Virus record (IMG/VR): IMGVR_UViG_3300014913_000019
Coordinates: 1-48,471 of that record
Length of the DNA: 48,471 nt
DNA from: a virus
Strand: one strand, 5' to 3'
Shown here: in pieces, positions 3,073 to 48,262 of the stretch
Layout of the letters: the number at the start of each line of letters is the position of its first letter
Numbering within the stretch: the first letter of the stretch is position 1
The notes under the pieces: generated by a model
Seen by the model: only the letters and a program-made list of their open reading frames with translations
What the model was told of the DNA's origin: nothing
Databases searched by the model: none
Position numbers and translations under genes: made by a program

Positions 3073-3276
3073 ATGGACTTCAGGAGATATGTTGCGAAGA
3101 AAGTATCCACCGGAGAACCGAAGAAGCACTACATAGGGCCCATCGAGAATCCAGAGGATTGGGCAGTAGTCACAGAAGTTTTCGGCACGAGCTCTCCCAA
3201 GGAGCTCGGCCAGATAATCATTGGTCTCGCTAAGGACCTGAAAGCCGGCAAGGCTCAAATATCGTTCACCGACTAA
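3073..3276 (+). CDS. Small protein, paralog of the reverse-strand gene at 47.3 kb
   Basis: 67 residues; ATG after AGGAGAGGTAG. The C-terminal half, GTSSPKELGQIIIGLAKDLKAGKAQI, aligns with GTQSNKEFAQIVKGLFNDLANGNLKI in the product at 47334-47546, and both share RYV near the start. A helix flanked by strands is likely. Function unknown; a repeated small family in one virus suggests regulators or host-interaction proteins. Confidence 0.65.
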   Translation: MDFRRYVAKKVSTGEPKKHYIGPIENPEDWAVVTEVFGTSSPKELGQIIIGLAKDLKAGKAQISFTD

Positions 3277-6100: not shown

Positions 6101-6132
6101 AATATTAAATAAATACATATTTATTTAATATT
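6101..6132. repeat. 32-bp palindromic operator-like repeat, copy 1
   Basis: Left half AATATTAAATAAATAC and right half ATATTTATTTAATATT are inverted copies with one mismatch. The same element recurs at 30366-30397 and 47897-47928. It lies 20 bases upstream of the TATA box of the MoxR operon, a typical place for an archaeal activator or repressor. A second small palindrome, TGCATATATGCA, lies at 6080-6091. Confidence 0.8.
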
Positions 6133-6152
6133 CATCGAAATAGCAATAATGC

Positions 6153-6159
6153 TTATATA
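6153..6159 (+). promoter_or_regulatory. TATA box of the MoxR-replication operon
   Basis: TTATATA in the context AATGCTTATATACTC, between the palindrome and the ATG at 6214. Expected start of transcription is about 25 bases downstream, leaving a short leader. Confidence 0.6.
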
Positions 6160-6213: not shown

Positions 6214-7236
6214 ATGGATGGGCAGTTAAGAGACCAATTAATTGAGTGTTTTAGGGAGAAGGGAGACTGGACAGTAAGCGAGCTTCTCGAACGGCTTCAA
6301 GTCCCTCCTCAGGAGCTTCTGAACCAGCTTTCGATTCTGAGAAGTACGGGTCAGATAAAGAAAGTGGGGCGCAATACGTGGGTTGCTGTGAACATACCCG
6401 GTAAGTCAAGCGAAGAAGAGAACCCGCTCATACCGAAGAACGTCATCTATGATGACTGGCAGGGCATAGTGTCCAGACTTCTCAAGTGCTACAAGCTTGG
6501 ATTGAACGTGCTTCTCATCGGTCCAGCCGGTACAGGCAAGACCGAGGCTGTGCGCAAGGTAGCCGAGATCCTCAAGAAGCCTCTTAGGATCATTCCGTGT
6601 TCTCTTAGAACGAGAGAGCATCACATAATAGGCAGGCTCGATACGGATGAAAATGGCAACCTGTACTTCAAGAAGGGACCACTCGTCCTGAGCATGGAGG
6701 AAGGAGGCATCTGCTACCTCGACGAGCTGAATATCATGGAGCCCGATGCACTGGTGAGGGTTGACGAGGCGCTGGATCAGAGAAAGGAGATAAACGTAGA
6801 GGGTCAGACGTTCAGGGCGAAAGAAGGATGGTGGGTGGTGGCGAGTATAAATCCGCTCGACAAGCTCCATCTGGGCACGAAGACGCTTCCCTCTCAGATC
6901 ATATCGAGATTCCCGGTCAAGCTGAGGCTCGCTTACCCAGACGTCTCCACCGAGTACAACATAGTTAAGCTCCACGTACCTGAAATAGCGAAACACTCGT
7001 CTAGGATGATCGAGTTAATTAAAACAGTTCAGTTCTTGAGAACCACTGATTTACCCTATGTTCCAACTATTAGGGAGAGCATAGCGTTAGCCAAGCTGAT
7101 AGCTAGCGACGTCAAGCCCTTCGAGGCGGTTAAGATGGTTCTGATAGACGTTTATGCTCAGTGGGGTGAAGTCGTCATCCATCAGGCTACCGAATTAATT
7201 GAAAGCAAGATAGGGAAATTGGAGGTGTTCGCTTGA
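6214..7236 (+). CDS. MoxR-family AAA+ ATPase with N-terminal winged helix
   Basis: 340 residues. Residues 1-60 form a winged-helix-like domain (WTVSELLERLQVPPQELL). The AAA+ core follows: Walker A GPAGTGKT at 103-110, Walker B CYLDELN (D170, E171), and arginines at the SRFPVKL segment. The sequence type is MoxR/CbbQ/NorQ, ATPases that work with VWA-domain partners to remodel or insert cofactors into protein complexes. The VWA partner is two genes downstream in the same operon. The archaeal virus ATV also carries MoxR and VWA proteins, tied to its tail development; a chaperone role here is inference. Confidence 0.85.
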   Translation: MDGQLRDQLIECFREKGDWTVSELLERLQVPPQELLNQLSILRSTGQIKKVGRNTWVAVNIPGKSSEEENPLIPKNVIYDDWQGIVSRLLKCYKLGLNVLLIGPAGTGKTEAVRKVAEILKKPLRIIPCSLRTREHHIIGRLDTDENGNLYFKKGPLVLSMEEGGICYLDELNIMEPDALVRVDEALDQRKEINVEGQTFRAKEGWWVVASINPLDKLHLGTKTLPSQIISRFPVKLRLAYPDVSTEYNIVKLHVPEIAKHSSRMIELIKTVQFLRTTDLPYVPTIRESIALAKLIASDVKPFEAVKMVLIDVYAQWGEVVIHQATELIESKIGKLEVFA

Positions 7237-10584: not shown

Positions 10585-10693
10585 GCCCTCATTTGTGCCT
10601 GATACCGTACCGCAGGAGACGGTGTTCTCGATCGAGGTAAAGTCGCAAGGGTTAAATATCGGAATCTCCATCTCTCTAATGGTGAGTATATGA
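10562..10693 (+). CDS. Sak4-type ATPase, 5' part (interrupted gene)
   Basis: 43 residues, MSRRPISKPSFVP... to a TGA that overlaps the ATG of the homing endonuclease. The stretch KSQGLNIGIS has the form of the first strand of a RecA-like core and would run straight into GEPDQGKTHF, the Walker A loop encoded after the endonuclease gene. Sak4 proteins (phage annealing ATPases of the RecA fold) have exactly this order: short N-terminus, hydrophobic strand, Walker A, then a LDTE strand. I therefore read this as the first piece of one gene split by the insertion. Confidence 0.65.
   Translation: MSRRPISKPSFVPDTVPQETVFSIEVKSQGLNIGISISLMVSI
10651..10658 (+). promoter_or_regulatory. Possible TATA box of the homing endonuclease
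   Basis: GTTAAATATC lies about 32-39 bases before the ATG at 10690, a suitable distance for a leaderless or near-leaderless transcript of the endonuclease gene. Confidence 0.35.
10666..10679 (+). repeat. 5' arm of the 14-bp complementary pair bounding the insertion
   Basis: CTCCATCTCTCTAA is the exact reverse complement of TTAGAGAGATGGAG at 11138-11151. Just outside, GTCGCAAGGG (10642-10651) can pair with CCCTGCGAC (11158-11166) with one bulged base. The long interrupted stem would bring the two halves of the Sak4 gene together in RNA. Confidence 0.65.
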
Positions 10694-11157
10694 GCTTAGA
10701 TATAGCGTATCTCGCGGGGATAATCGACGGAGAAGGTTGCCCTTACTTCAGAGTCCGAAAACACACGAACAACAAATCTTGGCAAGTGTCACTCGTCCTA
10801 GAGCTACAAACGACAAGTCTTGCGATGATGAAGAAGATTCAACAAATCTATATGCAGGAATTTGGGATAAAGAAGGAAATCAGAACGTATCAACCGCCCG
10901 GAAATAGAAAGCCTGTTTACATCCTCAATCTTCATAAAAAATCAGAGCTAAAACGAGTATGTAAAGCGATTGAACCATTCCTAACTACAAAGCGGAGGAA
11001 AATACAGATGCTCTTAAAGATAATAGATTATCTAGAACGAGTAAAGTTCGAACCTCTTCATCAGAAAGGCAAACATGGTGGAGCTGGATCAAGAACTCAT
11101 CGGGACTACGACCTTCTCCGTCGTTGGGAGCGAGAATTTAGAGAGATGGAGGATTAG
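10690..11157 (+). CDS. LAGLIDADG homing endonuclease inserted in the Sak4 gene
   Basis: 155 residues; single LAGLIDADG motif LAGIIDGEG near residue 8, so it should act as a homodimer. A long helical/strand body and a basic C-terminus (RTHRDYDLLRRWEREF) follow. Codon choice looks less biased to the AGG/CTC pattern of its neighbours, fitting recent arrival. It lies exactly between two halves of a P-loop ATPase gene. Homing endonucleases of this family copy themselves into a cut recognition site; their usual hosts are introns or inteins, and archaeal examples occur in bulge-helix-bulge introns. Confidence 0.85.
   Translation: MSLDIAYLAGIIDGEGCPYFRVRKHTNNKSWQVSLVLELQTTSLAMMKKIQQIYMQEFGIKKEIRTYQPPGNRKPVYILNLHKKSELKRVCKAIEPFLTTKRRKIQMLLKIIDYLERVKFEPLHQKGKHGGAGSRTHRDYDLLRRWEREFREMED
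11138..11151 (+). repeat. 3' arm of the 14-bp complementary pair
   Basis: TTAGAGAGATGGAG, inside the last codons of the endonuclease gene, exactly complementary to 10666-10679. The GGAGG part also forms a ribosome site seven bases before a CTG codon at 11160. Confidence 0.65.
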
Positions 11158-11915: not shown

Positions 11916-12073
11916 GCAACGATATTCACTGCCCGAACTGTGGATTTAAGCATCTTCAGGTGAGAGTGACGGAAAATGGCACTAAAGTCTGGTGTCCAAA
12001 CTGCAGACACTCGTATCTGATCAGATTCCTCGGAATACATTCTGGATTTACAAGAGGTGGACCTGAGGAATGA
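11912..12073 (+). CDS. Zinc-ribbon protein
   Basis: 53 residues; the ATG at 11912 overlaps the Sak4 stop (TTATGAGC). CPNCGFKHLQVR...VWCPNCRHSYLIR gives two C-x-x-C pairs 18 residues apart, a compact zinc ribbon. It may be a small nucleic-acid-binding accessory to the recombinase. Confidence 0.7.
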   Translation: MSNDIHCPNCGFKHLQVRVTENGTKVWCPNCRHSYLIRFLGIHSGFTRGGPEE

Positions 12074-12414
12074 ATCAAGAGAAACGTACTTTAGACGATC
12101 TGATCCAGACAAAGGAAGTCGATTTACCCAACGAGATCAGAGTCTGCTACTCCTTCTACTGCGCCCTGACAGCCGGCATCTCAAAGATGCTACCAGAGAA
12201 GATGCAAGAGAAGTGCAGGGAGATGGCGAAGAGAGACCTGAAGGACGAGATCAAGAAGCTGGCTGTCAAGAGCATTGCAGAGTCAGCTGTAAAGCTCTCG
12301 AATCCCGTTGAGCTCAAAGATGTCAAGATGATGGTAATGAGGAACGTGGAGCTCGATAGACCTCTGCTCTTAGTCAGCCCCAAGCATCTCAACGAGATAT
12401 GGAGGGATGGTTAA
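12070..12414 (+). CDS. Helical hypothetical protein
   Basis: 114 residues; the ATG overlaps the previous stop (GAATGA). Mostly helical with many charged residues (MQEKCREMAKRDLKDEIKKLAVKS). No family recognised. It belongs to the tightly packed replication-recombination gene run. Confidence 0.6.
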   Translation: MNQEKRTLDDLIQTKEVDLPNEIRVCYSFYCALTAGISKMLPEKMQEKCREMAKRDLKDEIKKLAVKSIAESAVKLSNPVELKDVKMMVMRNVELDRPLLLVSPKHLNEIWRDG

Positions 12415-13017: not shown

Positions 13018-15007
13018 GAGGAAAGTGATATTCGCCGAGCGCTTCATCCCCTATTTTTTCATGTCCTACGGAGCCCACATCTTCAACCTGATGAACTTCA
13101 GGAGGCACATCTACTTCGAGCACGGGAGAATCCCGGATATGCGGTGCCATCTTCTGTTTGTTGCTCCACCTGGATTCTGCCTCGATCCCAAAACGTCAGT
13201 GATGTTAGCTGATGGCTCTAGAAAACCACTGTCTGAAATCGAAGTCGGAGACGAACTAATGAAAGCTTACAGCAAGAAGAGAAATGTTGTATTAGCGAAG
13301 GTCGAGAGAGTAGCGACAGAAATCTTGGAGATCCAACCTCACGATATTAAGTGTTCGCCAGAGCATCTTATCTTGACCGATAAGGGCTGGAGAAGAGCTG
13401 GCGAACTTAAAGTAGGGGATAGGATGGCAACTTGCTTCACTTACAACGATTTGAGGCTGTTGGGCTTCTGGATAGCTGAAGGTCGCTTTGAAGGTAAAGG
13501 CCCATGGACGCCTACGCTCTCAAATACGGATCAGAAGTTGCTCGCCTCTTATCAGAGAGCTCTAGATGCCTTTGGAGTAAAATTGACTCCAAGAAGTCAT
13601 AACGAATTTGCATGTGTCCAACCGAACTATAAAACTTACCATGAGAACCAATTCGCTAAATTCTTAAGGTATTTAGGCTTTCGAAAAGCAAAGGCACAGG
13701 AGAAATTCATTCCAGAGGAACTCTTCACACTTCCGTGTTTTGCTAAGCGGATGCTATGTCGAGGATTGTGGGATGGCGACGGATGGAAGCACGGATACGC
13801 AACCAGCTCAACGAGATTAGCGAATGATCTTAATCAATTACTAAGAGATCTAAACGTAGAATTTTCCTACTACCCACATGATTATAAGGCAACGAAGCAG
13901 TGCTCGGCGTTCTACATCCATAAGAATTCTTGGGACTTCCTAAAGAGAACTGCAAGATTCGAACCAAGGAAAGCTCTTGGATTCGCCGCGGTTAAATCCA
14001 TTAGAAAGATTAAAGGACCAAGATATCTCATAGACATAACAACTTCGGCTGGCCATTTTGTGGCGAATAATGTTATAGTCCACAATTCAAAGTCCTTCTT
14101 CATGAAGCAGTGCTTCTCCGAGGACTTCGGCATACTCAACACTCCGACGATCAAGACCACGTTTCAGGGCTCGTGCACTGAGGCAGGATTCGTTGGTACC
14201 ATAGAGAAGAACAAGGGAACTCCGATCAAGCGCATGGGCTTAGCAGAGGAGTACAAGGATGGCATAGTTGCGATAGAGGAGTTCACTGCAATAACCAAAG
14301 TCCTTGAGCAGAAGCATTCTCTAACATTTGAAGCCCAGCTCAACTCAGCGCTGTTCGGAGGTCTCGTCAAGAAGAGGCTAGCTTCAGGCAGTATAAGCTA
14401 CAGGACGAGGGTAACGCTCATAGCCGGTACTCAGATAGCGAAGTTCGACATAAGCGGTGGGCTGGGAAGGAGACTGAGCTACATTTATTGGGTGCCCTCT
14501 CCTTCAGACTTTAGAAAATTAGCACAAGCTGTTAGGGAAGGAGAGAACGTTCCGTTGGACAAGCGCTCCTTGGTCGAGTACAGAAACAGGCTAATGGACC
14601 TCCAGAAGTCGCTCGACAGGATAAGGCGTGTGACTTTCTCGGACGACCTCTACGACTTCCTCAGCAGTAAACCGCACTTCGAGATCCTGCTCTACAAGAA
14701 GATGGCTCTGGGGTACAACCTGTTTACGAGGACTATATCTCCGGACTTCGAGGTTACGCTCGATGCGAGGCTGAAAGTCTTACTGAAGCGTGCCATGAAG
14801 TGGAGGGAACAGCTTTTGGCAGACCCAGAGGGAGCTCAGGTCATTGAGATACTGAAGAGGCACGGAGGCCTGATGAGCAAGGAGGATCTACAGACCGAGC
14901 TCCTGCGCTACTCGATAAACTGGGAAACCTCTTCCCGGATTATAGACAAGCTTTTAAGGTTGAGGAAGATAAGGTGGACGAGAGGAGGCAAGCTAGCAGT
15001 TGTGTAA
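12980..15007 (+). CDS. MCM-like AAA+ helicase interrupted by an intein in the P-loop
   Basis: 675 residues from a CTG start at 12980, or 660 from GTG 13025. The segment LTLYDEGLKILSERK before the GTG reads as protein and has AGGGAGGTGG six bases upstream; no ATG/GTG/TTG is available there. Without the intein, LLFVAPPGF joins SKSFFMKQ to form a Walker A (PPGFSKS). Walker B-like GIVAIEEF, a threonine/glutamine sensor (LIAGTQIAKF) and the GGLGRRLSYI arginines follow, and a winged helix (residues about 590-660 from the GTG) closes the protein. This fits MCM-like viral replicative helicases, but an unusual AAA+ family is possible. Confidence 0.75.
   Translation: MTLYDEGLKILSERKVIFAERFIPYFFMSYGAHIFNLMNFRRHIYFEHGRIPDMRCHLLFVAPPGFCLDPKTSVMLADGSRKPLSEIEVGDELMKAYSKKRNVVLAKVERVATEILEIQPHDIKCSPEHLILTDKGWRRAGELKVGDRMATCFTYNDLRLLGFWIAEGRFEGKGPWTPTLSNTDQKLLASYQRALDAFGVKLTPRSHNEFACVQPNYKTYHENQFAKFLRYLGFRKAKAQEKFIPEELFTLPCFAKRMLCRGLWDGDGWKHGYATSSTRLANDLNQLLRDLNVEFSYYPHDYKATKQCSAFYIHKNSWDFLKRTARFEPRKALGFAAVKSIRKIKGPRYLIDITTSAGHFVANNVIVHNSKSFFMKQCFSEDFGILNTPTIKTTFQGSCTEAGFVGTIEKNKGTPIKRMGLAEEYKDGIVAIEEFTAITKVLEQKHSLTFEAQLNSALFGGLVKKRLASGSISYRTRVTLIAGTQIAKFDISGGLGRRLSYIYWVPSPSDFRKLAQAVREGENVPLDKRSLVEYRNRLMDLQKSLDRIRRVTFSDDLYDFLSSKPHFEILLYKKMALGYNLFTRTISPDFEVTLDARLKVLLKRAMKWREQLLADPEGAQVIEILKRHGGLMSKEDLQTELLRYSINWETSSRIIDKLLRLRKIRWTRGGKLAVV
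13178..14086 (+). mobile_element. Intein 1 with LAGLIDADG endonuclease, in the helicase P-loop
   Basis: 303 residues. Splicing block A starts with Cys (CLDPKTSVMLADG), block B holds CSPEHLILT, the endonuclease domain has two LAGLIDADG-type motifs (LLGFWIAEG and CRGLWDGDG), and the C-terminal blocks are YLIDITTSAGHFVANNVIVHN followed by Ser. Cys1, the penultimate His and final Asn, and Ser+1 are all present, so protein splicing should work. Both acidic endonuclease residues are kept, so it may be an active homing element. P-loops are favoured intein sites. Confidence 0.95.
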
Positions 15008-15206
15008 AATAATTATCCAATCGCACTGGACGCTTGAGAGGAGAAAGATCAGATTTAAGGAGAACCCGCTTAAGTGGTTCGTTCAACTGATATTAGGAAG
15101 ACCTATGGGACCAGAAATGCCTATGCGCCATTTCGACGTAAGGCTCACGGATGAAGAGTTAATGGGCTGGACGCTAGACGGAGAGGATGAAAATGCCGAG
15201 ACCTAA
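15000..15206 (+). CDS. Small hypothetical protein
   Basis: 68 residues; TTG at 15000 overlaps the helicase stop and follows GGAGGCAAGC. A basic N-terminal half (WTLERRKIRFKENPLKW) and an acidic tail (DEELMGWTLDGEDENAE). No family recognised. The 3' end overlaps the next start. Confidence 0.5.
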   Translation: MCKIIIQSHWTLERRKIRFKENPLKWFVQLILGRPMGPEMPMRHFDVRLTDEELMGWTLDGEDENAET

Positions 15207-15630
15207 GAAAGAGGAGCCTATGAGTTTAACAACGGTTTATATCCCGACGAAGGCTCTGGAGTGGATAAGGGCGAACAGCAGGTCGATAGCAGGGTTCATC
15301 AGAGAGGCTGTGGTTGAGAAGATAGAGCGTGAGCAGAGCTATCAGGCTCAGATAGAGAAGCTCGAAAAGGAGATTCAGGAGCTGAACGACAAGGTAAAGT
15401 TCAAGAAGATGAAGCTCGAGGAGCTGAGGAAGAAGAAAGCCGAATATGAAAGACAACAGCGTCTGATGGAGCTCAGGGAGAGGATAGCGACTGCGATAGT
15501 CAACATTCACTACACCGATTACTTGGAGTGCGCAAGGGATTTAAGGGAGCTGGGCAAAGATATGAAATGGGAAGAGTGGCGCGACTTAGTTAAATCGGTG
15601 TGGGACGAGGTGAGGATAAACGGATTCTGA
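15187..15630 (+). CDS. Ribbon-helix-helix-like N-terminus with coiled coil
   Basis: 147 residues (ATG 15187, or ATG 15193). LTTVYIPTKALEWIRANSRSIAGFIREAVVEKI looks like a ribbon-helix-helix unit, a strand followed by two helices that binds DNA as a dimer, though the strand is not strongly basic. Residues about 50-105 are a long charged coiled coil (IEKLEKEIQELNDKVKF). It is a candidate regulator for the repeated palindrome, without direct proof. Confidence 0.6.
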   Translation: MKMPRPKKEEPMSLTTVYIPTKALEWIRANSRSIAGFIREAVVEKIEREQSYQAQIEKLEKEIQELNDKVKFKKMKLEELRKKKAEYERQQRLMELRERIATAIVNIHYTDYLECARDLRELGKDMKWEEWRDLVKSVWDEVRINGF

Positions 15631-19630: not shown

Positions 19631-19936
19631 ATGAGAGAAGAGGAGATAGACAGGCTGATAAGGAGCAAGCCCAACGTCTTGAGCTGGAGAGACGATCTAA
19701 CGAAGGTAAAGAACGGAAAGAACACGGGCGAACCTTGTATCACAGTGTTCGTTGCGAGGAAAGTAAAGGCATCGGAGCTCAGACCTGATGAGCTGATACC
19801 TCCAGAGATAGGCGGTGTGAAGACAGACGTGGTAGAGCTTGCACCTGAAGACTTCGAGATAGGGGATACCAAAGCGGGGAGACTTCCTCCCAGCGTTCAG
19901 AAGAGGATAGCTGGAGGTGTCAGAGGTGTCGAGTAA
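19631..19936 (+). CDS. Prodomain-like protein preceding the cysteine protease
   Basis: 101 residues; ATG after AAAGGAGTGATGAAAT. The sequence EPCITVFVARKVKASELRPDELIPPEIGG resembles the N-terminal strand region found before bacterial and archaeal secreted-type peptidases, here without the expected catalytic domain in frame. It overlaps the papain-like gene by 20 bases in the +1 frame. It may be a separate prodomain or chaperone, or the first half of a fusion joined by frameshift. Confidence 0.55.
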   Translation: MREEEIDRLIRSKPNVLSWRDDLTKVKNGKNTGEPCITVFVARKVKASELRPDELIPPEIGGVKTDVVELAPEDFEIGDTKAGRLPPSVQKRIAGGVRGVE

Positions 19937-20675
19937 GGTCGATTGGAGGCTCTACTGCCCGCCTGTCCGGGATCAGGATGTATGCGGAGCATGCTCGGCA
20001 TTCGGAACCATAGGCGCTATTGAAACGCATCTTAAGATAAAGAAAAAGGATCCGGGGATACATATTGACCTGTCAGAAGCCCACCTCTTCTTCTGCGCGG
20101 ATGGAGACTGCTGGTATGGAGTGCTGATGAACAAGGTACTTGATAGAGCAAAGGAGGGCATCTGCCGTGAAGAGTGCTGGCCCTACGAGCCGGTAACGCA
20201 GAGCTGTAAGGAAGAGCCCTGCTCTGATTGGAAGCAAGGTGCATACAGGATCAAGGATTGGTACTACGTCTACGATACCGACGAGATGAAGAAGTTCTTG
20301 AAGGATGGCCCTCTGATAACCGTGATGGCCGTGTATCAGTCGTTCTTCCACTACAAGAGCGGAGTCTACCACCCACTTGAAAACGATGCATTCGTGGGCT
20401 ATCACTGCGTCACTATAGTCGGATATGACGACGAGCTCAATGCATGGCTGATAAGAAATAGCTGGGGCGAGGATTGGGGTATGGGTGGATATGCATGGAT
20501 CAAATACGGCACTTGCAGGGTCGACAGAACCATGTACCGCATAGAGGTCGATCCGGAACCGCTAGAACCGGAGAATAGGCTTGCTAAGATTCTAGACGAG
20601 ATTCACATGATGCTCCAGCGGATCATCCAGAGGATTCAGCGTTTGCTCGAATCCTTACAACAACGCTATCAATAA
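19917..20675 (+). CDS. Papain-like (C1A) cysteine protease
   Basis: 252 residues from GTG 19917. The mature papain domain is nearly full: VDWRLYCPPVRDQDVCGACSAF (oxyanion Gln20, nucleophile Cys26), YHCVTIVGYD (His163), and IRNSWGEDWG (Asn181). Many further cysteines suggest disulfides and so an oxidising location. No signal peptide is seen. The last 35 residues form an amphipathic helix. It closes the forward operon; host S-layer or lysis processing, or maturation of virion proteins, are possible roles. It overlaps the convergent reverse gene by 53 bases. Confidence 0.85.
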   Translation: MSEVSSKVDWRLYCPPVRDQDVCGACSAFGTIGAIETHLKIKKKDPGIHIDLSEAHLFFCADGDCWYGVLMNKVLDRAKEGICREECWPYEPVTQSCKEEPCSDWKQGAYRIKDWYYVYDTDEMKKFLKDGPLITVMAVYQSFFHYKSGVYHPLENDAFVGYHCVTIVGYDDELNAWLIRNSWGEDWGMGGYAWIKYGTCRVDRTMYRIEVDPEPLEPENRLAKILDEIHMMLQRIIQRIQRLLESLQQRYQ

Positions 20676-20904: not shown

Positions 20905-23199
20905 CTAAGACCACTCCTGAAAGAGGTCGAAGTACCACAGAGTCATGGTCCTCTGATAGTCCATATCAGCACTGATTTGAATTAACAGGTAGGCGTCATC
21001 AGTTGTGGGCAAATTCGTCGTCTCGGTGTGTTTCAGCTCTCCGTTCACATAGAACTTGATACTTGAACCGTACTCATACCTCGCCTCAAGCTCAACGGGC
21101 GTTCCAGCAGTGATCGTCCCTATATCCGTTAGATACGTCGTGTCACTGACCCTGACGCGAGCTCTTATGGTTGCATCCTCAATATCGAAGCCCCACTGAT
21201 CCAGAGGGGTGTTCTCATTGTAAATCAAAATCAAGATTCTCTGGTTCGAATCGTAATCAGGCGTGATCTTGCATTTGAAGCTCGGGTTGCGTTCGTTCCT
21301 CACGATAGCGCTACCAGAGCTGATGTTGGCGACCGGTGCTACTCCTGACTGATATCCCGTATCGAGGTCTATCCGACCTATAGAAGCCGTTACAGATCCG
21401 TAGTCAGCCTCTACAAGCCATCCATCCAGACTCTCGCCTGTGATCCTGACGTGTTCTCTGAACTTATACGAAAACTCAGGGTGCTGAGGTATCCATTCCG
21501 AGCCATCGCTGTAGAACGTCTGACCAGCGTACTCCCCTCCCGTCACATACACGTATTTGCCGGTATACGATGATGCGCTTGGAAGAGAGCTCACGACTTC
21601 GATTGTCTTCTTCGAAGACCCATCGCTTATATCGTCGAGATCTCCGTCCATGTTAGCCAGATTAGGAGTTGCTATGAAGTGCCAAGAACTTCCATCATAC
21701 CTGTAGAACTTGTTCTCATCGGTCCTGTAGAAGATATCACCATCCTCTGCGTTAGCTGGAAACGAGGTCCCGTACCTGCAGATCGTGGCGAGGGGAATCC
21801 ACTCAGAGCCGTTGTAGTAGAATGTCTGCTCGTATCCCGTATGGTAGAACGTATCGCCGGCTTCGGGATTTGACGGAAACGAGCTCCCGTATGCCTGATG
21901 CATCACCTTCCTCCATTCCGAGCCGTCATAGCGGTAGAGGTAGCCATCATCGGTGTTGTAGAAGAAGTCTCCGATTCTGGGTGAAGCTGGGAATGAAGTG
22001 CCGTGTGTAGACAGCTGATGCACAACCTTCCAATCCGATCCATCATACCTGTAGAGCGCATTCTCGTCGGTTTTGTAGAACAGATCGCCCGTTGAAGGAT
22101 TAGACGGAAAGGCTGTTCCCTCTCCTGATGTCCTCGCTATCTTGTCCCAGCTTGAACCGTTGTATCTGAAGCAGGCATCCAAATCAGTTCTGTAGAACAG
22201 CTGTCCGGTCGAGGGGCTAGAGGGGAATGCAGTGCCAGACGGCACTTCCAGATGAGACGACACGAGATAGATGCCCAAGTCCTCAAGATTTGAGAACTGA
22301 TCCCTGAAGCGGTCAGCTATCGACTTGTCCTTAACCTCCAGCTCGACTTCTACCCTGTCAGCCTTCTTCGTTATTCTGGCTATTCTATAAGACGAGGATA
22401 AGTTCCTGAGCTCATCGTTTATCGTTATCGTGTCACCCGAATTCAGATAGACTCCATCATCGACCGTAAGGATGATCTTGCCACCCACCGCTCCAGCGCT
22501 CAATTCACTCAGCTTCTTCTGCGCTATGTTCTGGAGGGTTGCGAGATCCGTAGCCTTGCGTTCAAAGAAGACCTTAGCGCGGTCTCCCGATCCAACGCTC
22601 GCTTCGGCCACCAGCTCATTACCATCTTTGTCGTATCCCCTGACTATCACCTTGTTGTAGATCTTAGCCCTGTTGACTTCGCGCTTGCCGATTGCGGTCG
22701 GAGATACCTCGCCCTTGTCTTCTCCCTTATCCCCTATGTTGAACTTACCGTCTGAGGTCCAGAAGTCCTTGTTGAGGCAGTAGGCGAGGAACGTTGCGGC
22801 GACCCAGCAGTCCGTGCTTATGAACTTGACTGAGAGAGAGTCAGACGGGCACTCGCCAGCGCTCACTCCAGCGCTTGAGCAGATATCCGAGAGTATGGTG
22901 TCAGCCGGTGTGCTCGTGTAGTCGCCTGAGTGCACCTTGCCATCCATGCTATAATAAACCGAGTCGTATGCTATCGCCTTCAAGACCTGAGCTTCGTACT
23001 TCGCACCCGTGAGCGTACCTTCGAATACCGTTGTACCGTCGTATTTGATAACTACTGATCTATCAGATCCTACCAGATCTCTATTATCGTCTGTATTAGG
23101 AAGACTAAATCGAGCATAGCGTATGCCGTCAAGCTCGTCGACTATCTTATCGAGCCGGGCATCTACGAGTTCACCGTCTATGTAAATCTCCCAGCTCAT
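20905..23199 (-). CDS. Tail hub/fibre protein with five tandem repeats and lectin-like tip
   Basis: 764 residues. The first ~310 resemble siphovirus tail-tip hub proteins (RYARFSLPNTDD, VIKYDGTTVFEGTL, AIAYDSVYYSMDGKV, NKVIVRGYDKDGN, LNSGDTITI). Then come five repeats of about 38 residues, each opening G-T/S-x-F-P and including GDxFYxTD and YRYDGSxW. The C-terminal ~180 residues (ASIGRIDLDTG, FYVNGELKHTETTNLP, TLWYFDLFQEW) look like a concanavalin/LamG-type lectin fold. The tip likely binds a host surface glycan and sets host range. Its ATG overlaps the previous tail gene's stop. Confidence 0.75.
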   Translation of the reverse strand: MSWEIYIDGELVDARLDKIVDELDGIRYARFSLPNTDDNRDLVGSDRSVVIKYDGTTVFEGTLTGAKYEAQVLKAIAYDSVYYSMDGKVHSGDYTSTPADTILSDICSSAGVSAGECPSDSLSVKFISTDCWVAATFLAYCLNKDFWTSDGKFNIGDKGEDKGEVSPTAIGKREVNRAKIYNKVIVRGYDKDGNELVAEASVGSGDRAKVFFERKATDLATLQNIAQKKLSELSAGAVGGKIILTVDDGVYLNSGDTITINDELRNLSSSYRIARITKKADRVEVELEVKDKSIADRFRDQFSNLEDLGIYLVSSHLEVPSGTAFPSSPSTGQLFYRTDLDACFRYNGSSWDKIARTSGEGTAFPSNPSTGDLFYKTDENALYRYDGSDWKVVHQLSTHGTSFPASPRIGDFFYNTDDGYLYRYDGSEWRKVMHQAYGSSFPSNPEAGDTFYHTGYEQTFYYNGSEWIPLATICRYGTSFPANAEDGDIFYRTDENKFYRYDGSSWHFIATPNLANMDGDLDDISDGSSKKTIEVVSSLPSASSYTGKYVYVTGGEYAGQTFYSDGSEWIPQHPEFSYKFREHVRITGESLDGWLVEADYGSVTASIGRIDLDTGYQSGVAPVANISSGSAIVRNERNPSFKCKITPDYDSNQRILILIYNENTPLDQWGFDIEDATIRARVRVSDTTYLTDIGTITAGTPVELEARYEYGSSIKFYVNGELKHTETTNLPTTDDAYLLIQISADMDYQRTMTLWYFDLFQEWS
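21660..22240 (-). repeat. Five tandem ~38-residue fibre repeats
   Basis: Each unit carries G(T/S)(A/S)FP, then G-D/Q-x-FY-x-T-D, then (F/Y)RY(D/N)GSxW; at DNA level the copies are similar but not identical. In-frame repeats like these expand and contract by recombination, changing fibre length. Confidence 0.85.
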
Positions 23200-27888: not shown

Positions 27889-28293
27889 TTAGCCACGAGT
27901 CTTCCGAGAGGGCTGTCCGCGAAAGGATCTCGGTAGCTTCTCGGCCAGATCGCTTATCCCGCTGAAGTCCATTATCTCAAGTATTAAAGCTATCTTGTCG
28001 CCTGTTCTTATCTCATCGATTGAGAGCGCATCTTCAGACGGCTCACCGATCACGATCTTCGGCTCTTCCACACCAGCCGGCAGAAGTATTCTGGCTAGCT
28101 CTGGCAGGTATTCGACGACGTTCTGCACATTTACCTGTCCGGCAGGCATCTTCGCATAGAGCTTCTGCAGTTCGCCGAATGCCAGAATATCGATCTCCTT
28201 AATCTTGAACACTGCACCTGATGGAGTTTCCACTATCTTAGTGCGCGGAGACTTTCTCCTGTACTCAGACGGTGAGGTTACTTTCCTTGGCAT
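27889..28293 (-). CDS. Tail assembly chaperone, first part (G-like)
   Basis: 134 residues. It lies between tail-tube and tape-measure genes and has the acidic helical body typical of G proteins (RIDEIRTGDKIALILEIMDFSGI). The final residues after KLPRSFRG are non-conserved-looking and basic, as expected if the main product leaves this frame earlier. A CCC-T step in CAGCCCTCT offers a possible +1 slip site. Confidence 0.6.
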   Translation of the reverse strand: MPRKVTSPSEYRRKSPRTKIVETPSGAVFKIKEIDILAFGELQKLYAKMPAGQVNVQNVVEYLPELARILLPAGVEEPKIVIGEPSEDALSIDEIRTGDKIALILEIMDFSGISDLAEKLPRSFRGQPSRKTRG

Positions 28294-28305
28294 TCAACCA
28301 CCTGC

Positions 28306-29289
28306 CTAAGGAGCTGACTTGGTATTCACTACTTCTACCTGTATTGCGTATCCGCTTGACGAGTCATGGAGAGCCTCGAATCCGAGCCTCTGGATTATCC
28401 TCGATCTCCTGTCGAAGTTCGCATTCGAGGTGTCAAGCCTGCACTTGGGAAGCGTTATAGCCAGCTTGTAGTTCTCGTATCCAGCTGTGCCCGATCCGGT
28501 TGAGCCTCCCGTAGCTATGAACTCTATCTTGACTGTCGAAGGCGTCTCAGAAGGTTCAGTTGCGGTTGAAGACCCGTAGAACAGCCTGTAGTAGTCCCAC
28601 GAGGTGAAAGCTATGTCCATCTCTCCGGTTATCTCTCCTCCCTCAAGTCTCAGGGCTGGCAAGAACATGTTGTTCAGCACGAACGCATCGTCTGGTATGC
28701 TGTTCGAAATGTCGAGCCTGAAAGCTTCGACCGTGGCTACTGCTGAATCCTCAATTTCGACAGAGGAGTTGTTGAATGGCAGAGGCGATATGTTAGCGAA
28801 AGACGGAGTAGTACTTGATGGGGATATCAGCTCCTCCTTAGCGCCGAGTATTCCTATCGTTGCGGTCAGAGGAGATCCGGCCTCAGCTTCGAGCCTCATG
28901 GAGAGTATACCGACACCGCTTATTTGCCTTGAGTAGTCGCTTGGAGACTCTGGGAATATTTCGAGCGTGTAAGAAGGCAGTGAGTTAGCAGGCGTGAACG
29001 TGTGCTTGTATGCGGTGATCTCTCCGTCATTCGAAGTCGATACGCTTCCCAGCAGTCCTTCGAGGAATTTGGTTATGCTCTGCGCGTCCACGTAAAGGCT
29101 AATGTCTCCTGTTACCTTGAAGCCTCCTGGTATTTTGTCCCTCGCGAATCTGTAGCCTGCCTCTTCGAGCTTCACTCTGTCCCAGTCAGGCGCTATACTC
29201 TCGCTTATTATGTTGATGTACTCCGAGGCGCTTACGGCGGTCCTATACGTCGACTCTTTACCTATCCCGAGGAATCTTACCATCTTCAT
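28306..29289 (-). CDS. Major tail tube protein
   Basis: 327 residues, beta-rich, Ser/Thr/Gly-rich. Features such as VRFLGIGKESTYRTAVSASEYINI near the start and GGFKVTGDISLYVDAQSITKFLEG follow the tail-tube fold (Pam3-gp18/gpV-like beta sandwich). Position directly ahead of chaperone and tape-measure genes supports it. The length suggests an extra Ig-like domain. Confidence 0.75.
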   Translation of the reverse strand: MKMVRFLGIGKESTYRTAVSASEYINIISESIAPDWDRVKLEEAGYRFARDKIPGGFKVTGDISLYVDAQSITKFLEGLLGSVSTSNDGEITAYKHTFTPANSLPSYTLEIFPESPSDYSRQISGVGILSMRLEAEAGSPLTATIGILGAKEELISPSSTTPSFANISPLPFNNSSVEIEDSAVATVEAFRLDISNSIPDDAFVLNNMFLPALRLEGGEITGEMDIAFTSWDYYRLFYGSSTATEPSETPSTVKIEFIATGGSTGSGTAGYENYKLAITLPKCRLDTSNANFDRRSRIIQRLGFEALHDSSSGYAIQVEVVNTKSAP

Positions 29290-29332
29290 TCCTCCCTACC
29301 AGCCATCCCGTCTTGCGAGACGGCTTGGCGAG

Positions 29333-29794
29333 CTATCCTCCTCTCAACCAGCTTTCTATCTCCTCCGCTGTTATAGCACCGATCCTGCTTTTAAGCCTTA
29401 TGTAAGTCCTCATGCCGAATGGATTGGGTCGAGTACCCGGATGATGCAGTACGGTTCCGACTCTGAAAAACAGGTTCCGCTTACCTTCCCTCTCAGCCTT
29501 GTCCCTCAGGCTCAGAGGCCTCGATAAGACGATATCGTGAGGTCTTGTTCCTCGTTCAACTGCAACCGCGTACTCCGCATCGCACCTTATCCTGACTTCT
29601 CTGTCCTGCAAGAATTCTATGTGATAAATCATCGACTTCAGATAACCCGTCTCCTCTGGAGCCTCCTCTTTCATGATCTCTACGCCTTCTTTACCAACTC
29701 TGCTCAGAAGTCTTGACCAGAACGCGATTTCCCTTTGTAGAACCTCTGGTATCTTATCCAGACTCTTGCTTATCTTGTATTCAATATACGCCAA
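29333..29794 (-). CDS. HK97 gp10-like head-tail/tail-completion protein
   Basis: 153 residues. LLSRVGKEGVEIMKEEAPEETGYLKSM...AEYAVAVERGTRPHDI is the signature of the HK97 gp10-like family (helix, APxxTGxL, then YAxxVExGTxPH). These sit at the head-tail interface or act in tail completion. The 5' leader contains a (TCAC) tract at 29808-29831. Confidence 0.8.
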   Translation of the reverse strand: MAYIEYKISKSLDKIPEVLQREIAFWSRLLSRVGKEGVEIMKEEAPEETGYLKSMIYHIEFLQDREVRIRCDAEYAVAVERGTRPHDIVLSRPLSLRDKAEREGKRNLFFRVGTVLHHPGTRPNPFGMRTYIRLKSRIGAITAEEIESWLRGG

Positions 29795-29807
29795 CCTACC
29801 GCTTCCT

Positions 29808-29831
29808 CACTCATTCACTCACTCACTCAAG
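29808..29831. repeat. Short TCAC tandem repeat
   Basis: CACTCATTCACTCACTCACT, four to five copies of a 4-base unit in the 63-base gap between two tail genes, just upstream (on the reverse strand) of the gp10-like start. Such tracts can vary in length by slippage. Confidence 0.55.
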
Positions 29832-29857
29832 AAGATGGAGATGGAGGTATTAAAAGC

Positions 29858-30292
29858 TTATGCCGATACCCGGATCACCTGTGTGTCTATCTCGATGAAT
29901 GCATAATAAAAGACAACTGACCTTACGGCACGCCACGAGTACGATACTCTGGTCACTTCAGTCGTCTGGACGTACGAGTTGCCTAACGTTCTATCACTCT
30001 CTATCTGGTCTATTATCTCTCCGACATAGTTAATTATGTCGTTCAGGTCCGCTTCGGTACCCGTACCCTTGCTGTGCACCTCTATCCTCCAGATCAGGTG
30101 ATGAAACGTGTGGGATGGACCGCTCATCTCATGTCTGTCCTCTCTCAACCTCAAGAACACAACGGGATAGCTGAGACCGCTTAAGTCCTTCACGTAGTCT
30201 GCGAATGTATTCGCATCTCCGAATGAGTCAGTAGCCTTTATCATGCTCAGAATAGAAGACTTCACGCTCTTAACGACGTCTGAGTACCCCAT
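29858..30292 (-). CDS. Tail terminator-like protein
   Basis: 144 residues, first gene of the reverse tail operon. The pattern (helical start, LSYPVVFLRLREDRHE, then HLIWRIEVHSKG...INYVGEIIDQIESDR) fits the alpha/beta fold of tail-terminator or gp11/gpU-type proteins, which cap the tail tube. Assignment rests mostly on order and length. Confidence 0.55.
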   Translation of the reverse strand: MGYSDVVKSVKSSILSMIKATDSFGDANTFADYVKDLSGLSYPVVFLRLREDRHEMSGPSHTFHHLIWRIEVHSKGTGTEADLNDIINYVGEIIDQIESDRTLGNSYVQTTEVTRVSYSWRAVRSVVFYYAFIEIDTQVIRVSA

Positions 30293-30311
30293 TTCCTTCT
30301 CGCTATCTTAT

Positions 30312-30339
30312 TGACAAGACGCTTATATAAAGCTTGTCA
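30312..30339 (-). promoter_or_regulatory. Tail-operon promoter with dyad flanking the TATA box
   Basis: On the reverse strand CTTTATATAA (30323-30332) is a good TATA box about 31 bases before the start codon at 30292. It is enclosed by TGACAAG (30312-30318) and CTTGTCA (30333-30339), perfect 7-base inverted arms. A protein on this dyad would block TBP, so this looks like a repressor site. Confidence 0.65.
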
Positions 30340-30365
30340 GCGCCTCGACTAATGCTCTGGACATG

Positions 30366-30397
30366 AATATTAAATAAATATATATTTATTTAATATT
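30366..30397. repeat. 32-bp palindromic operator-like repeat, copy 2 (perfect)
   Basis: AATATTAAATAAATAT and its exact inverted copy. It lies between the divergent tail and packaging promoters, so one bound protein could control both late units. Copies 1 and 3 are at 6101 and 47897. Confidence 0.85.
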
Positions 30398-30420
30398 CGT
30401 TTAGAAGCACTATACAAGAC

Positions 30421-30428
30421 TTAAATAG
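30421..30428 (+). promoter_or_regulatory. TATA box of the packaging/head operon
   Basis: CTTAAATAG about 43-50 bases before the TTG at 30471 and 24 bases after the palindrome. The spacing is close to that of the first operator and its TATA box. Confidence 0.55.
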
Positions 30429-30470
30429 CAGTTTGTGTTATAAGCGTTTAGCGAAGTAAGGTGAGCCTAA

Positions 30471-30770
30471 TTGGTTGAAGGTGTTATCTGGTTCAACCAT
30501 CCGAAAGCTTTCAACCAGCTGATGACTGAAGGAGAGGTTTACACATTAAGAAAGACGATAAAGAACGGTATCTACGTCGTCCTCAGCAAGCTCGTGCTGA
30601 ACCCGCCTAAGACAGGCAGAATGGCAAAGGTCGAATATCTCGGTCAGGTGCTGAACAAAGAGGAGCTTGAAAACTACGTAAAGAAGTCTGGATACAAGTC
30701 GGTCGATGATTGGGTCAGCGAGGCGAAGGATGCGGTTCACCTGCACAGAGTGCTTCTCTTAACACCATAA
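30471..30770 (+). CDS. Small late protein, first of the packaging operon
   Basis: 99 residues from TTG 30471 after AAGGTGAGCC. The sequence VIWFNHPKAFNQLMTEGEVYTLRKTIKNG...PPKTGRMAKVEYLGQV suggests a small beta domain (possibly ASCH/PUA-like: strand, charged turn, strand) with a C-terminal helix (ENYVKKSGYKSVDDWVSEAK). ASCH-type domains bind RNA. Identification is tentative. Confidence 0.5.
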   Translation: MVEGVIWFNHPKAFNQLMTEGEVYTLRKTIKNGIYVVLSKLVLNPPKTGRMAKVEYLGQVLNKEELENYVKKSGYKSVDDWVSEAKDAVHLHRVLLLTP

Positions 30771-30786
30771 ATGGAGGTGTAATAAT

Positions 30787-31251
30787 ATCCCTCGTGTATG
30801 CAAGACATGTGAGCATCCTGACGTGGCTGAGATAAACGAGCTTTTGTTAAAAGGCGTGCCAATCAAGGTAGTGGCCGAGCGCTTTAATCTCCCCTATGAT
30901 TCGGTAAGGAGACACAAGAAAAACCACTTAGCTGAAGAAATCAGACAGCTTAAGAAGATCAAGAAGATAGAGACGAGGAAGCGAATACTCTCCACGCTTG
31001 AGTACTATGATAAGTTCTTGGAATACTTCGCCGACAACCCAGAGAAGTTCTTCGAACAGATGACATTCAAGGATCTGCTGAGGATACTCGAAGATAGGTC
31101 GAAGCTTCTGGGAGAGGAAGTGTCGCCTCCGAGAATAGAGATAGTCTGGGGAGCCGGATTGGGAGAGGAATTTAAAGAGGAAGCCTTCACAATTAAAATA
31201 CCGGTCGTGAAAGAAATTGAGAAGAAGAAATCTGAAGAGAAGATGGTCTGA
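30787..31251 (+). CDS. Terminase small subunit-like protein with N-terminal zinc finger
   Basis: 155 residues if started at ATC 30787, seven bases after GGAGGTG; no ATG, GTG or TTG precedes GTG 30823, and that later start would delete the motif VCKTCEHP. The C-x-x-C-x-H-P knuckle, then helix-turn-helix (INELLLKGVPIKVVAERFNLPYDSVRRHKKNHL), is a recurrent architecture of viral small-terminase or DNA-recognition proteins, followed by a coiled coil and an acidic C-terminus. It should recognise viral DNA and hand it to TerL. Confidence 0.75.
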   Translation: MPRVCKTCEHPDVAEINELLLKGVPIKVVAERFNLPYDSVRRHKKNHLAEEIRQLKKIKKIETRKRILSTLEYYDKFLEYFADNPEKFFEQMTFKDLLRILEDRSKLLGEEVSPPRIEIVWGAGLGEEFKEEAFTIKIPVVKEIEKKKSEEKMV

Positions 31252-31432
31252 GCGGGAAATAGAAGTTCTCAAAGAGTATTACGGAAGGATACCGACGAGA
31301 GACCTCGCGAGGATATTCAACAGGAGCGTAGATGCGGTCAAACAGCAGGCAAGCAGATTGGGTCTCAGATTCCCTGAAGGTTCTGTCGACGAAGAGCTTT
31401 TGAGGAAGATTCTGGAGGTAAGAGAGGGATGA
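31217..31432 (+). CDS. SANT/Myb-like helix-turn-helix protein
   Basis: About 71 residues from TTG 31217, inside the end of the TerS gene. KRRWSEREIEVLKEYYGRIPTRDLARIFNRSVDAVKQQASRLGL is a Myb/SANT-type HTH (Trp, acidic helix, R-x-x-D recognition turn). Such small HTH proteins often sit beside terminase genes and may be a second DNA-recognition component. Confidence 0.65.
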   Translation: MRRRNLKRRWSEREIEVLKEYYGRIPTRDLARIFNRSVDAVKQQASRLGLRFPEGSVDEELLRKILEVREG

Positions 31433-32301
31433 TAAACAATAAGTGGACTCCTCCACCTGAGCCTCGGACTTTATCAGTGAAGTTCAAGCGGGTGGTGGCA
31501 TTCGTAGCCGATACGCATATTGGCTCAAGATACGCTATCTTTCCTCCCGGAGTGATGAGCAAAGAGGGAAACAACCTGAGCGCCATGAGGAACGCAGGTC
31601 AGGTGAAGCTCTACGAGTACTGGCAGAAGTGGGAGGAGATATGTGATGCATGGGGAGCGGATACGGTCATCCTCTTGGGTGATATAATACAGGGCAACAA
31701 CCCGGCTGGGAGAGGCATCGGGACGATAACTACCGACCTTGACGAGCAGAAGGACGCGGCGGTTACTCTGCTATCCAAAATCTGCAAAGATCGGATAGTG
31801 CACTGTCTATCCGGTACGCCTTATCACGAGTCGATAGACACGAGGATACACTACGACATAGCCAAAGAATTGGGAGAGACCGTAGCGAAGGAGTGGCACT
31901 TCCACGGTCTCCTAGCGAATATCAAGCTCAAGGGTACTAATCGGATACTAAATCTAGCTCACGGAGTATCAGGAGCTTCGATCTACAGAACAACACTGAT
32001 GGATCGAGAAGCGCTGTTTGAGGCGGCGGCGTATGGTCTCGGAGACTTAGACTTCCTCCCCGATGTAGTCGTGAGAGCGCACTGGCACAGGTTCATCCAC
32101 ATTCACTTACCAAACCAGCACATACTCCAGCTTCCGTGCTGGTGTGCATGGTTTCCCTACAGGGGCACTCTAAAGCTCTACGGCAAGCTCCAGCCCCACA
32201 TAGGCGGTGTGATACTCTTCATAGACGACTACGACAGAATTACAATTCACCACTATCTCTTCAAGCCTCCTAGGATAGCCGACTATCTGAAGGAGGGATG
32301 A
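31429..32301 (+). CDS. Calcineurin-like metallophosphoesterase
   Basis: 290 residues. FVADTHIGS (first metal motif), ILLGDIIQG (second), LSGTPYHE (third, normally GNHE, here GTPYHE), a helix-rich middle, and RAHWHRFIHI (fourth, GHxH-like). The replaced Asn-His dyad is unusual and may shift substrate preference. Enzymes of this fold split phosphoesters in DNA, RNA or nucleotides. Its place between the terminase subunits suggests work on DNA ends during packaging. It ends with ATG-like coupling into TerL. Confidence 0.75.
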   Translation: MINNKWTPPPEPRTLSVKFKRVVAFVADTHIGSRYAIFPPGVMSKEGNNLSAMRNAGQVKLYEYWQKWEEICDAWGADTVILLGDIIQGNNPAGRGIGTITTDLDEQKDAAVTLLSKICKDRIVHCLSGTPYHESIDTRIHYDIAKELGETVAKEWHFHGLLANIKLKGTNRILNLAHGVSGASIYRTTLMDREALFEAAAYGLGDLDFLPDVVVRAHWHRFIHIHLPNQHILQLPCWCAWFPYRGTLKLYGKLQPHIGGVILFIDDYDRITIHHYLFKPPRIADYLKEG

Positions 32302-32304
32302 GGA

Positions 32305-33540: not shown

Positions 33541-33546
33541 GCAAAA

Positions 33547-33568
33547 GCTTAATTAAGCATTTATGCTT
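33547..33568 (+). promoter_or_regulatory. Nested palindromes between TerL and portal genes
   Basis: GCTTAATTAAGC (33547-33558) is a perfect palindrome and overlaps AAGCAT-TT-ATGCTT (33555-33568). They occupy the 53-base gap before the small gene at 33594 and contain TATA-like TTAATTAA and CATTTATG. Could be an internal promoter with an operator, or an RNA hairpin separating TerL from the structural genes. Confidence 0.5.
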
Positions 33569-33593
33569 CTTTTAGAGTGTTGAAGTGGTGAAC

Positions 33594-33761
33594 ATGAAGA
33601 GGAGGGTATTCTACGCCGATAAAGACGGAACTGTGGAAGCGCTCGGCATGAAGCTCGACGCGAAGCCCTCTGAGCTTAGGATTCTCATAAACGGTGTGGA
33701 CATCTCTGAGAGCGTATTGCTCGAACGGGTTGAGATAGTGGTCGAAAAGGAGGAGGAGTAG
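33594..33761 (+). CDS. Small protein before the portal gene
   Basis: 55 residues from ATG 33594. MKRRVFYADKDGTVEALGMKL, RILINGVDI and an acidic end (VEKEEE) make a small beta-rich protein; the next gene starts one base after its stop. No family recognised. Confidence 0.55.
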   Translation: MKRRVFYADKDGTVEALGMKLDAKPSELRILINGVDISESVLLERVEIVVEKEEE

Positions 33762-33762
33762 C

Positions 33763-43494: not shown

Positions 43495-43498
43495 GAAG

Positions 43499-44782: not shown

Positions 44783-44795
44783 GCGCCTATTTGAT

Positions 44796-44812
44796 CTCCC
44801 TTATTTTTTTGT
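44796..44812 (+). terminator. T-rich terminator after the capsid gene
   Basis: CTCCCTTATTTTTTTGTTTC, with a run of seven T, 14-30 bases after the capsid stop. It would limit read-through after the most highly needed product. It also overlaps the last codons of the reverse-strand HTH gene. Confidence 0.5.
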
Positions 44813-44980: not shown

Positions 44981-45004
44981 TTTGTTAATAATTTTGTTAG
45001 TAGG

Positions 45005-45014
45005 GTTTAAATAG
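45005..45014 (+). promoter_or_regulatory. TATA box for the decoration-protein gene
   Basis: GTTTAAATAG, about 32-41 bases before ATG 45046 and just after the HTH gene's start. This gives the genes after the capsid their own transcript, possibly under the control of the HTH protein. Confidence 0.6.
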
Positions 45015-45045
45015 TTTGCCGTCGTCTATTGAGTCGGTGGATGAG

Positions 45046-45681: not shown

Positions 45682-45708
45682 GCTCCTCAACCTTATTAGG
45701 TGATGCAG

Positions 45709-47333: not shown

Positions 47334-47546
47334 TCACTTGTTTTTCTTAACTTCAACAATTTTTAGGTTGCCATTCGCTAAATCGTTGAATAAACCTTTT
47401 ACAATTTGCGCAAACTCTTTGTTTGATTGTGTACCAACGAACTTAAGCATTTTCTGGACTTCTGGACTTGAACGTTTGCCGAAATTCACCCAGAAGTTAC
47501 CTTTGGTTGATTTTTGTACTTGTTCTTTCACGTAACGATCTCTCAA
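47334..47546 (-). CDS. Small protein, paralog of the gene at 3073
   Basis: About 70 residues. AGGAGGTG is at the 5' end of the open frame; the GTG inside it cannot be the start, so ACG 47552 or TTG 47546 is used. It shares RYV, then GTQSNKEFAQIVKGLFNDLANG with the product at 3073-3276. The DNA is far more AT-rich than the rest of the window. It is reverse to all its neighbours. Confidence 0.6.
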   Translation of the reverse strand: MRDRYVKEQVQKSTKGNFWVNFGKRSSPEVQKMLKFVGTQSNKEFAQIVKGLFNDLANGNLKIVEVKKNK

Positions 47547-47896
47547 ATTCGTTTTTATCACCTCCTTTAATTTCTAATAATATATTCTCATCAAGTCTTG
47601 ATTTTCAAAATTCGTTAAGCAAACCTCAATAATCGAGTGCTTCAGTTAATGAATCTTCAATTTTCACACTTGATTTTTAAAATTGAATGTTGTTGAAAAT
47701 TGTTGAATGGGTCAGCAACATTCAACAATACGAAATTCGTAAATCACATATATACTTTACTGATTCGGCTTGCCTAACCTTGTTCTACACTTGTTTACAC
47801 ATGTCGATTTTTGGCTCAAGTCTTTAGCCATCTTGCGAAAGTCTTAAATTCTCAAGGCTTCCTTAACGCTCATCTTGTTCAACATTCAACATGCTC

Positions 47897-47928
47897 AATA
47901 TTTAATAAATACGTATTTATTTAATATT
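47897..47928. repeat. 32-bp palindromic operator-like repeat, copy 3
   Basis: AATATTTAATAAATAC and its inverse GTATTTATTTAATATT, one mismatch to the other copies. It lies upstream of the gene at 48304, which would head the early operon if the genome is circular. Confidence 0.8.
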
Positions 47929-47989: not shown

Positions 47990-48262
47990 CCAACACTTGT
48001 ATACACTTGTATATCAAGCACTGGTCGTTGGTCGTTGGAGTATAGATATAGGCGCGCGAGGTAAGTGTGAGTGTGAGCCATACTATCACGTCCACCTCTT
48101 CACCACTTCTCCACCTCTCAGCGTTATCGGTCTTATTGGCTTCCACCCGCGCTCTTTCTTCTCATGTGCAGTTATAAATCTTTAACTTTTCTACGCTGAT
48201 TTTAAAAATTCTTTAACGATTTTTGCGAATTTCGTAAAAACGAATACAGAATTGTATCCAAA

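Follow-up and report, generated by a model that had tools for sequence, protein, structure and literature searches.

The window, by which we mean the whole 48,471-nucleotide stretch of DNA analysed here (virus W), is the record of a head-tailed virus. Its genes, read from the sequence, include those for a terminase (32305), a portal (33763), a prohead protease (42223), a tail tube protein (28306) and a capsid protein (43487), the last with a weak match to Haloarcula tailed viruses. We infer the timing of its operons from their gene content. Three palindromes and the promoters around them are laid out as follows.

6101..6132, no strand: site 1, palindrome AATATTAAATAAATACATATTTATTTAATATT, candidate operator at the head of the replication operon
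6152..6159, plus strand: TATA box CTTATATA of the 6214 operon, starting 36.5 bp from the centre of site 1
6214..7236, plus strand: first gene behind site 1, a MoxR-like AAA ATPase with an N-terminal wHTH-like segment
30322..30331, minus strand: TATA box TTTATATAAG of the tail operon (30292, leftward), 50.5 bp from the centre of site 2
30365..30398, no strand: site 2, a perfect 34-bp palindrome between divergent structural operons
30420..30427, plus strand: TATA box CTTAAATA of the packaging/head operon (30471, rightward), 39.5 bp from the centre of site 2
47897..47928, no strand: site 3, a palindrome with one arm mismatch, between a small minus-strand gene and the early operon
48225..48259, plus strand: a second operator set, the tandem palindromic elements GCGAATTTCGTA and GAATACAGAATTGTATCC, directly upstream of the early TATA box at 48265-48272

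Behind the ATPase gene, the replication operon continues with genes for a VWA protein (7492), an OB-fold protein (9141), an intein-bearing protein (13025) and a PD-(D/E)XK nuclease (15713).

The first-pass annotation had reported three near-identical 32-bp palindromes at 6101-6132, 30366-30397 and 47897-47928, and closer inspection bears this out. Site 1 consists of perfect 15-bp arms flanking 2 bp, and the second copy, described as perfect, is so over 34 bp (30365-30398). A scan of the whole window, both strands, for the half-site AATATTAAATAAATA with up to two mismatches yields six occurrences, all of them in the three palindromes, and no further copies at random positions; dinucleotide-preserving shuffles predict about 0.06 by chance (maximum of two in 100 shuffles, with 0/100 reaching six). 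The three sites form one repeat family and are the longest and strongest palindromes in the window. As had also been proposed, none lies within any likely gene, all three being intergenic.

Three syntenic full-length relatives of W are available, namely IMGVR 3300033150_001454 (G1), 3300005265_000033 (G2) and the contig QMZE01000003 (G5). Relatives were reached only through proteins, an exact-pattern scan of IMG/VR with the W-type palindrome giving no match. The close relative of W is G5, which is binned in an Archaeoglobales MAG and carries a scaffold name that points to Guaymas; this binning is the sole source of the host link to Archaeoglobales. G1, G2 and L009, a fragment, share about 70% DNA identity with W, L053 is a further relative, and L055 is a distant relative with another gene order. 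G1, G2 and G5 carry exact terminal repeats of 104-123 bp (123 bp in G5) and are permuted with respect to each other, which indicates that these genomes are circular or circularly permuted. The ends of W (1-20 and 48450-48471) are adjacent on the G5 and G1 maps with 16 bp missing between them, and the window is therefore essentially complete; the gene running from 48304 to 350 is split by the record ends. When window positions 28000-47900 were compared with 57 Archaeoglobales-order genomes, the short matches were weak and included no clear protospacer.

Several other genes of the window are also of note. A LAGLIDADG protein (10690-11157) is inserted beside a RadA-like ATPase, where G1 and G5 have a single longer ORF, and the 13025-15007 protein contains an intein that is missing in G5. 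A viral papain-family cysteine protease is encoded at 19917-20675 (Pfam C1, E 3e-38). Positions 35304-40262 encode a 1652-aa fusion of a D12 adenine methyltransferase, a metallo-beta-lactamase-like domain, an ATP-dependent ligase domain and a Hint/intein segment, and the gene that follows carries a LigD 3'-phosphoesterase domain.

The palindromes are conserved in position and reworded in sequence. In G5 each of the three corresponding places holds one copy (site 1 at 22282-22313, site 3 at 15075-15106), and at up to three mismatches there is no other, either on the contig or in the remaining ~1.85 Mb of its 1.9-Mb Archaeoglobales bin, a bin that may be incomplete or not that of the host. This distribution, three sites in G5 and none elsewhere in the bin, assigns the sites to the virus. 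The place of site 1 is also occupied in G1 and G2, with other half-sites, and that of site 2 in G5, G1, G2 and L009. Read outward from the centre, the half-site is TATTTATTTAATATT in W and G5 versus TATTTATAAATTAT in L009 and, apart from variants in one arm, in G2; the inner seven bases, TATTTAT, are common to most half-sites of both types. Within any one genome the half-sites of the sites agree, the substitutions between W and L009 are symmetrical in the two arms, and the 2-bp spacer is kept at all main sites of W, G5, G1, G2 and L009. The sites of G1 consist of two unlike halves that pair poorly, yet their position is kept. In a matrix scan of W the three sites score 36-37 and the next match 12 (Markov controls at most 11); in G2 the three sites, at 36, 32 and 31, are the best genome-wide, with an extra site 1 palindrome at 22 (Markov controls at most 22). 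The matrix was built partly from these sites, and only the gap between the sites and the rest is informative. Type-II viruses carry an additional AT-rich palindrome 3' of the terminase gene (L009:7378-7408 and the matching place after TerL in G1), which is absent in W.

Because both arms change, and the change is repeated at all sites of a genome, a symmetric, sequence-specific protein is the expected partner of these elements; a hairpin would require symmetry only. The palindromes are thus probably operators of a sequence-specific regulator.

The geometry of the promoters is consistent with such a role. The distance from palindrome to downstream TATA box, put at about 20 bases in the first-pass annotation, measures 19 bp at site 1 and 22 bp at site 2, and site 2 does lie between divergent late promoters, with TATA boxes on both sides (30420, plus; 30322-30331, minus). 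The description of all three sites as operon heads applies to sites 1 and 2; site 3 in W has no nearby TATA box, that of the early operon (48265) being ~340 bp away. Site 3 in L055 is likewise without an adjacent TATA box, and the counterparts of site 3 in G5 and G2 face the TATA box of the minus-strand gene, 49.5 bp and 32 bp from the centre, respectively. From the centre of site 1 to the TATA box the distance is 36.5 bp in W and G5 and 91-92 bp in G1 and G2, where a second palindrome lies 31.5 bp from the TATA box of the same promoter. At site 2 the forward distances are 39.5 bp (W), 40.5 bp (G5), 40.5 bp (G2), 41.5 bp (G1) and 28.5 bp (L009), the last shorter by 12 bp, or about one turn; the reverse distances are 50.5 bp (W and G5), 44.5 bp (G2), 26.5 bp (L009) and 29.5 bp (G1). 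At the replication and late promoters as a whole, centre and TATA box are 26.5-50.5 bp apart except at the main site 1 of G1 and G2, and the TATA box is never covered by the palindrome.

The control region around site 3 is AT-rich, extends over 0.9 kb and contains other conserved blocks as well. The position of site 3 bears on the earlier proposal that a single viral regulator could coordinate the early, replication and late units. This proposal is well supported for the replication operon (site 1) and the divergent late operons (site 2); its early part, as first put, is not, because site 3 falls within the control region of the minus-strand regulator-like gene and the early promoter has operators of its own. 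The tandem pair at that promoter (ORF 48304) differs from the three palindromes and is kept in five viruses. At 48030-48150, the conserved blocks TATAGATATAGGCGCGCGAGG and GCGTTATC, related in all five aligned viruses, may represent a replication origin or another control element. For sites 1 and 2, the conserved position, the covariation within genomes, the placement upstream of a TATA box and the absence from the rest of the bin together argue for one virus-specific regulator.

The gene for a virus-encoded binder should be present wherever the sites are. Two of the three binders first proposed are set aside by this reasoning: the ArsR-like protein (16635) occurs only in W and G5, although G1 and G2 have sites too, and of the four full-length genomes W alone encodes the HTH protein (44801). 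The third, an RHH-like protein (15187), is present in W, G5, G1 and G2 and stays in contention. A further gene, which was not among these candidates, adjoins site 3; we refer to its product as Reg.

15187..15630, plus strand: RHH-like coiled-coil protein, alternative binder, with the putative DNA strand LTTxYxP
47334..47561, minus strand: Reg, 75 aa, pI 10.2, candidate regulator, its true start perhaps a downstream TTG
3073..3276, plus strand: Reg paralogue of 67 aa encoded in the early operon, with an ordinary level of conservation (64-91%)

Reg is found in W, G5, G1, G2 and L053, and a search with the Reg alignment finds it also in L055. The proteins are 75-83 aa long (73 aa in L055), with pI values of 9.1-10.2 in W, G5, G1, G2 and L053. 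Between W and G5, 25 of the 32 nucleotide differences lie in codons that still specify the same amino acid, which indicates that Reg is a real gene. Reg and site 3 share an intergenic region in W, G5, G2 and L053. In L055, which is distant and rearranged, a palindrome (1484-1525) lies between Reg and the divergently oriented homologue of the early gene. That palindrome is of the window type, with two mismatches in 21-bp arms and a centre 4 bp wider, and its half-site reads TATTTATTTAATA as in W, where G2 and L009 have TATTTATAAATTA. At the place of site 3, G1 lacks a good palindrome though Reg is kept, and L053 has only half of one. An apparent insertion between Reg and site 3 in W relative to G5 was also considered; it is probably ancestral, with similar sequence in G1 and L053. 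The paralogue encoded at 3073-3276 may oppose Reg or act as its partner.

Searches with Reg give no match above cut-off in Pfam (RHH included), PHROGs or PDB sequences, and thus no recognised DNA-binding domain; among 57 Archaeoglobales-order genomes they give no homologue besides the virus contig. Two AlphaFold monomer models of moderate-to-low confidence (pLDDT 77 and 66) predict an extended segment followed by helices at 33-42 and 47-62, an order compatible with the strand and two helices of an RHH protein. Reg is nonetheless left unassigned: the topology fits, but comparison with a host RHH profile (hhalign) is negative and a fold search with the first model (Foldseek/VIA) returns no match.

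Comparison of Reg with other viral proteins sets it apart. Reg of W is 58% identical to that of L055 and 25-29% identical to those of G1, G2 and L053; for TerL, portal, TerS and the early gene product the corresponding values are 32-60% and 52-88%. Among the five proteins compared with L055, the order of identities is thus reversed in Reg alone. The wording of the operator tracks Reg: in the lineage with reworded half-sites Reg is strongly diverged (25%), and where the half-sites are kept its divergence is ordinary. This correlation has a single instance behind it, one event on one branch, and W and G1/G2 differ just as much in two or three further proteins (for example 12070-12414, 22-26%). 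A topological conflict between the Reg tree and the core genes was dropped as an argument, since the unrooted topology (five shared taxa, from identities) agrees and only the branch lengths differ. As far as these sequences can tell, Reg underwent an exceptional change on one branch; transfer of Reg is not claimed as proven.

On balance we lean towards an explanation in which a single regulator encoded by the virus, most likely Reg, uses the three palindromes as its operators. A symmetric oligomer of the regulator would span some three helical turns immediately ahead of the basal promoter. It would place the replication operon (at site 1) and both divergent structural operons (at site 2) under joint control, and at site 3 would probably control its own gene. 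We infer, with good support, that replication and late structural operons are the targets. Whether Reg would activate these genes or, as a repressor, spread into the promoter is nearly balanced; we lean slightly to activation, given that the sites are placed upstream of TATA/BRE without covering these elements and that a different operator set serves the early promoter.

The same operators could instead be bound by the RHH-like protein (15187-15630) through the inner TATTTAT, with the outer arms free to drift. Among the characterised regulators of archaeal viruses RHH proteins are the commonest, and inverted repeats are bound by some of them (PMC5569661). The present one is conserved across W, G5, G1 and G2 and has a match to a host RHH profile (hhalign E 2.5e-4), and an inner heptamer common to most half-sites of both operator types would suit it. 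We nevertheless regard this as unlikely. Its gene is far from every site, nothing in it parallels the operator change, the 60% identity between W and G1/G2 being ordinary, and the LTTxYxP strand is unchanged between operator types although the half-sites changed.

Improbable, too, is a role in DNA maintenance, with the palindromes serving as dispersed centromere-like sites, replication-initiator sites or recombination sites at module boundaries. Dispersed centromeres are found in phage N15; the relatives' genomes are circular or circularly permuted, the sites lie at joints of functional modules, and site 3 occupies an AT-rich control region with conserved blocks. Against this, sites 1 and 2 retain their position ahead of the TATA box, and G1 and G2 have an extra palindrome beside the site 1 TATA box. 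In addition, ParA/ParB, the genes of N15-like partition, are not seen among the ~35 window proteins scanned with Pfam (a subset of the ORFs), and no Phage_integrase domain is found in W, G1 or G2.

Exploitation by the virus of a host regulator's operators is quite improbable: archaeal viruses rely on the host transcription machinery and AT-rich palindromes could suit a host factor, but no copy occurs in the rest of the bin, itself perhaps incomplete or not that of the host, and a viral partner would more readily account for three sites having changed together within a single virus lineage. A hairpin or cruciform acting through structure rather than sequence, such as an RNA stem or terminator, is highly improbable: its 15-17 bp arms can pair and the W-L009 substitutions are symmetrical, but the stem is all A/T, the expected transcripts would not include site 2, which lies upstream of both divergent TATA boxes, the three sites of one genome share sequence and not symmetry alone, and the unlike halves of G1 pair poorly yet stay in place.

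Regulation of the preferred kind, by a viral protein with a few operators in its own genome, is known. SvtR of SIRV1 is a small viral regulator that binds its own and a few other promoters, including that of a structural gene, at a site well upstream of the TATA box (PMC5569661). The SvtR site, however, is a short imperfect inverted repeat, in contrast to the 32-bp near-perfect palindromes here; SvtR is an RHH protein, whereas Reg is not recognizably one; and the present virus, a head-tailed one, has its association with Archaeoglobales, whereas that of SIRV1 is with Sulfolobales. F55 of SSV1, again a single viral protein, has sites at its own promoter and at several early ones (PMC5569661), but these are tandem ATAGATAG repeats overlapping BRE/TSS, and SSV1 is lysogenic whereas W, G1 and G2 show no Phage_integrase domain. 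These two RHH regulators, which represent the best characterised mechanisms among archaeal viruses, bind close to promoters or upstream of them, and may extend along the DNA from there (PMC5569661). The SvtR/AvtR/F55 group has several sites including one at its own promoter; here there are three in W and G5, with a site near Reg in W, G5, G2 and L055, none in G1 and half of one in L053. For sites just upstream of TATA/BRE, TBP/TFB recruitment by activators of the Ptr2/TFB-RF1 type (named in PMC5569661) offers one model, although these are cellular proteins and no relation to Reg was seen in the searches made.

In the cluster A mycobacteriophages, dispersed sites diverge together with their own repressor and one lies near the repressor gene (PMC6550527, PMC9283540). 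The co-divergence of operators and Reg, the candidate binder, resembles this, but as one event on one branch. Cluster A stoperators are ~13-bp, asymmetric, oriented with transcription and present in up to ~30 copies per genome, in contrast to the three symmetric sites at operon heads described here.

The characterised regulators of archaeal viruses covered in a review (PMC5569661) come chiefly from Sulfolobales viruses, and very little work has addressed how head-tailed viruses of hyperthermophilic archaea control their genes. As far as our literature search, which was not exhaustive, extends, this virus group, its operator and its protein family are undescribed. Four full-length genomes and several fragments now provide a defined operator, a candidate protein without known relatives and a putative natural change of specificity. 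A bolder reading, which we hold to be doubtful, is that Reg founds a new family of archaeal-virus DNA-binding proteins with at least two specificity types, the regulator having been exchanged, or having rapidly re-evolved, together with all its operators. These genomes thereby raise the question of whether regulator-operator specificity groups exist among archaeal viruses as they do among phages; if the bolder reading is true, Reg and its operators would be an archaeal counterpart of phage immunity groups (heteroimmunity).
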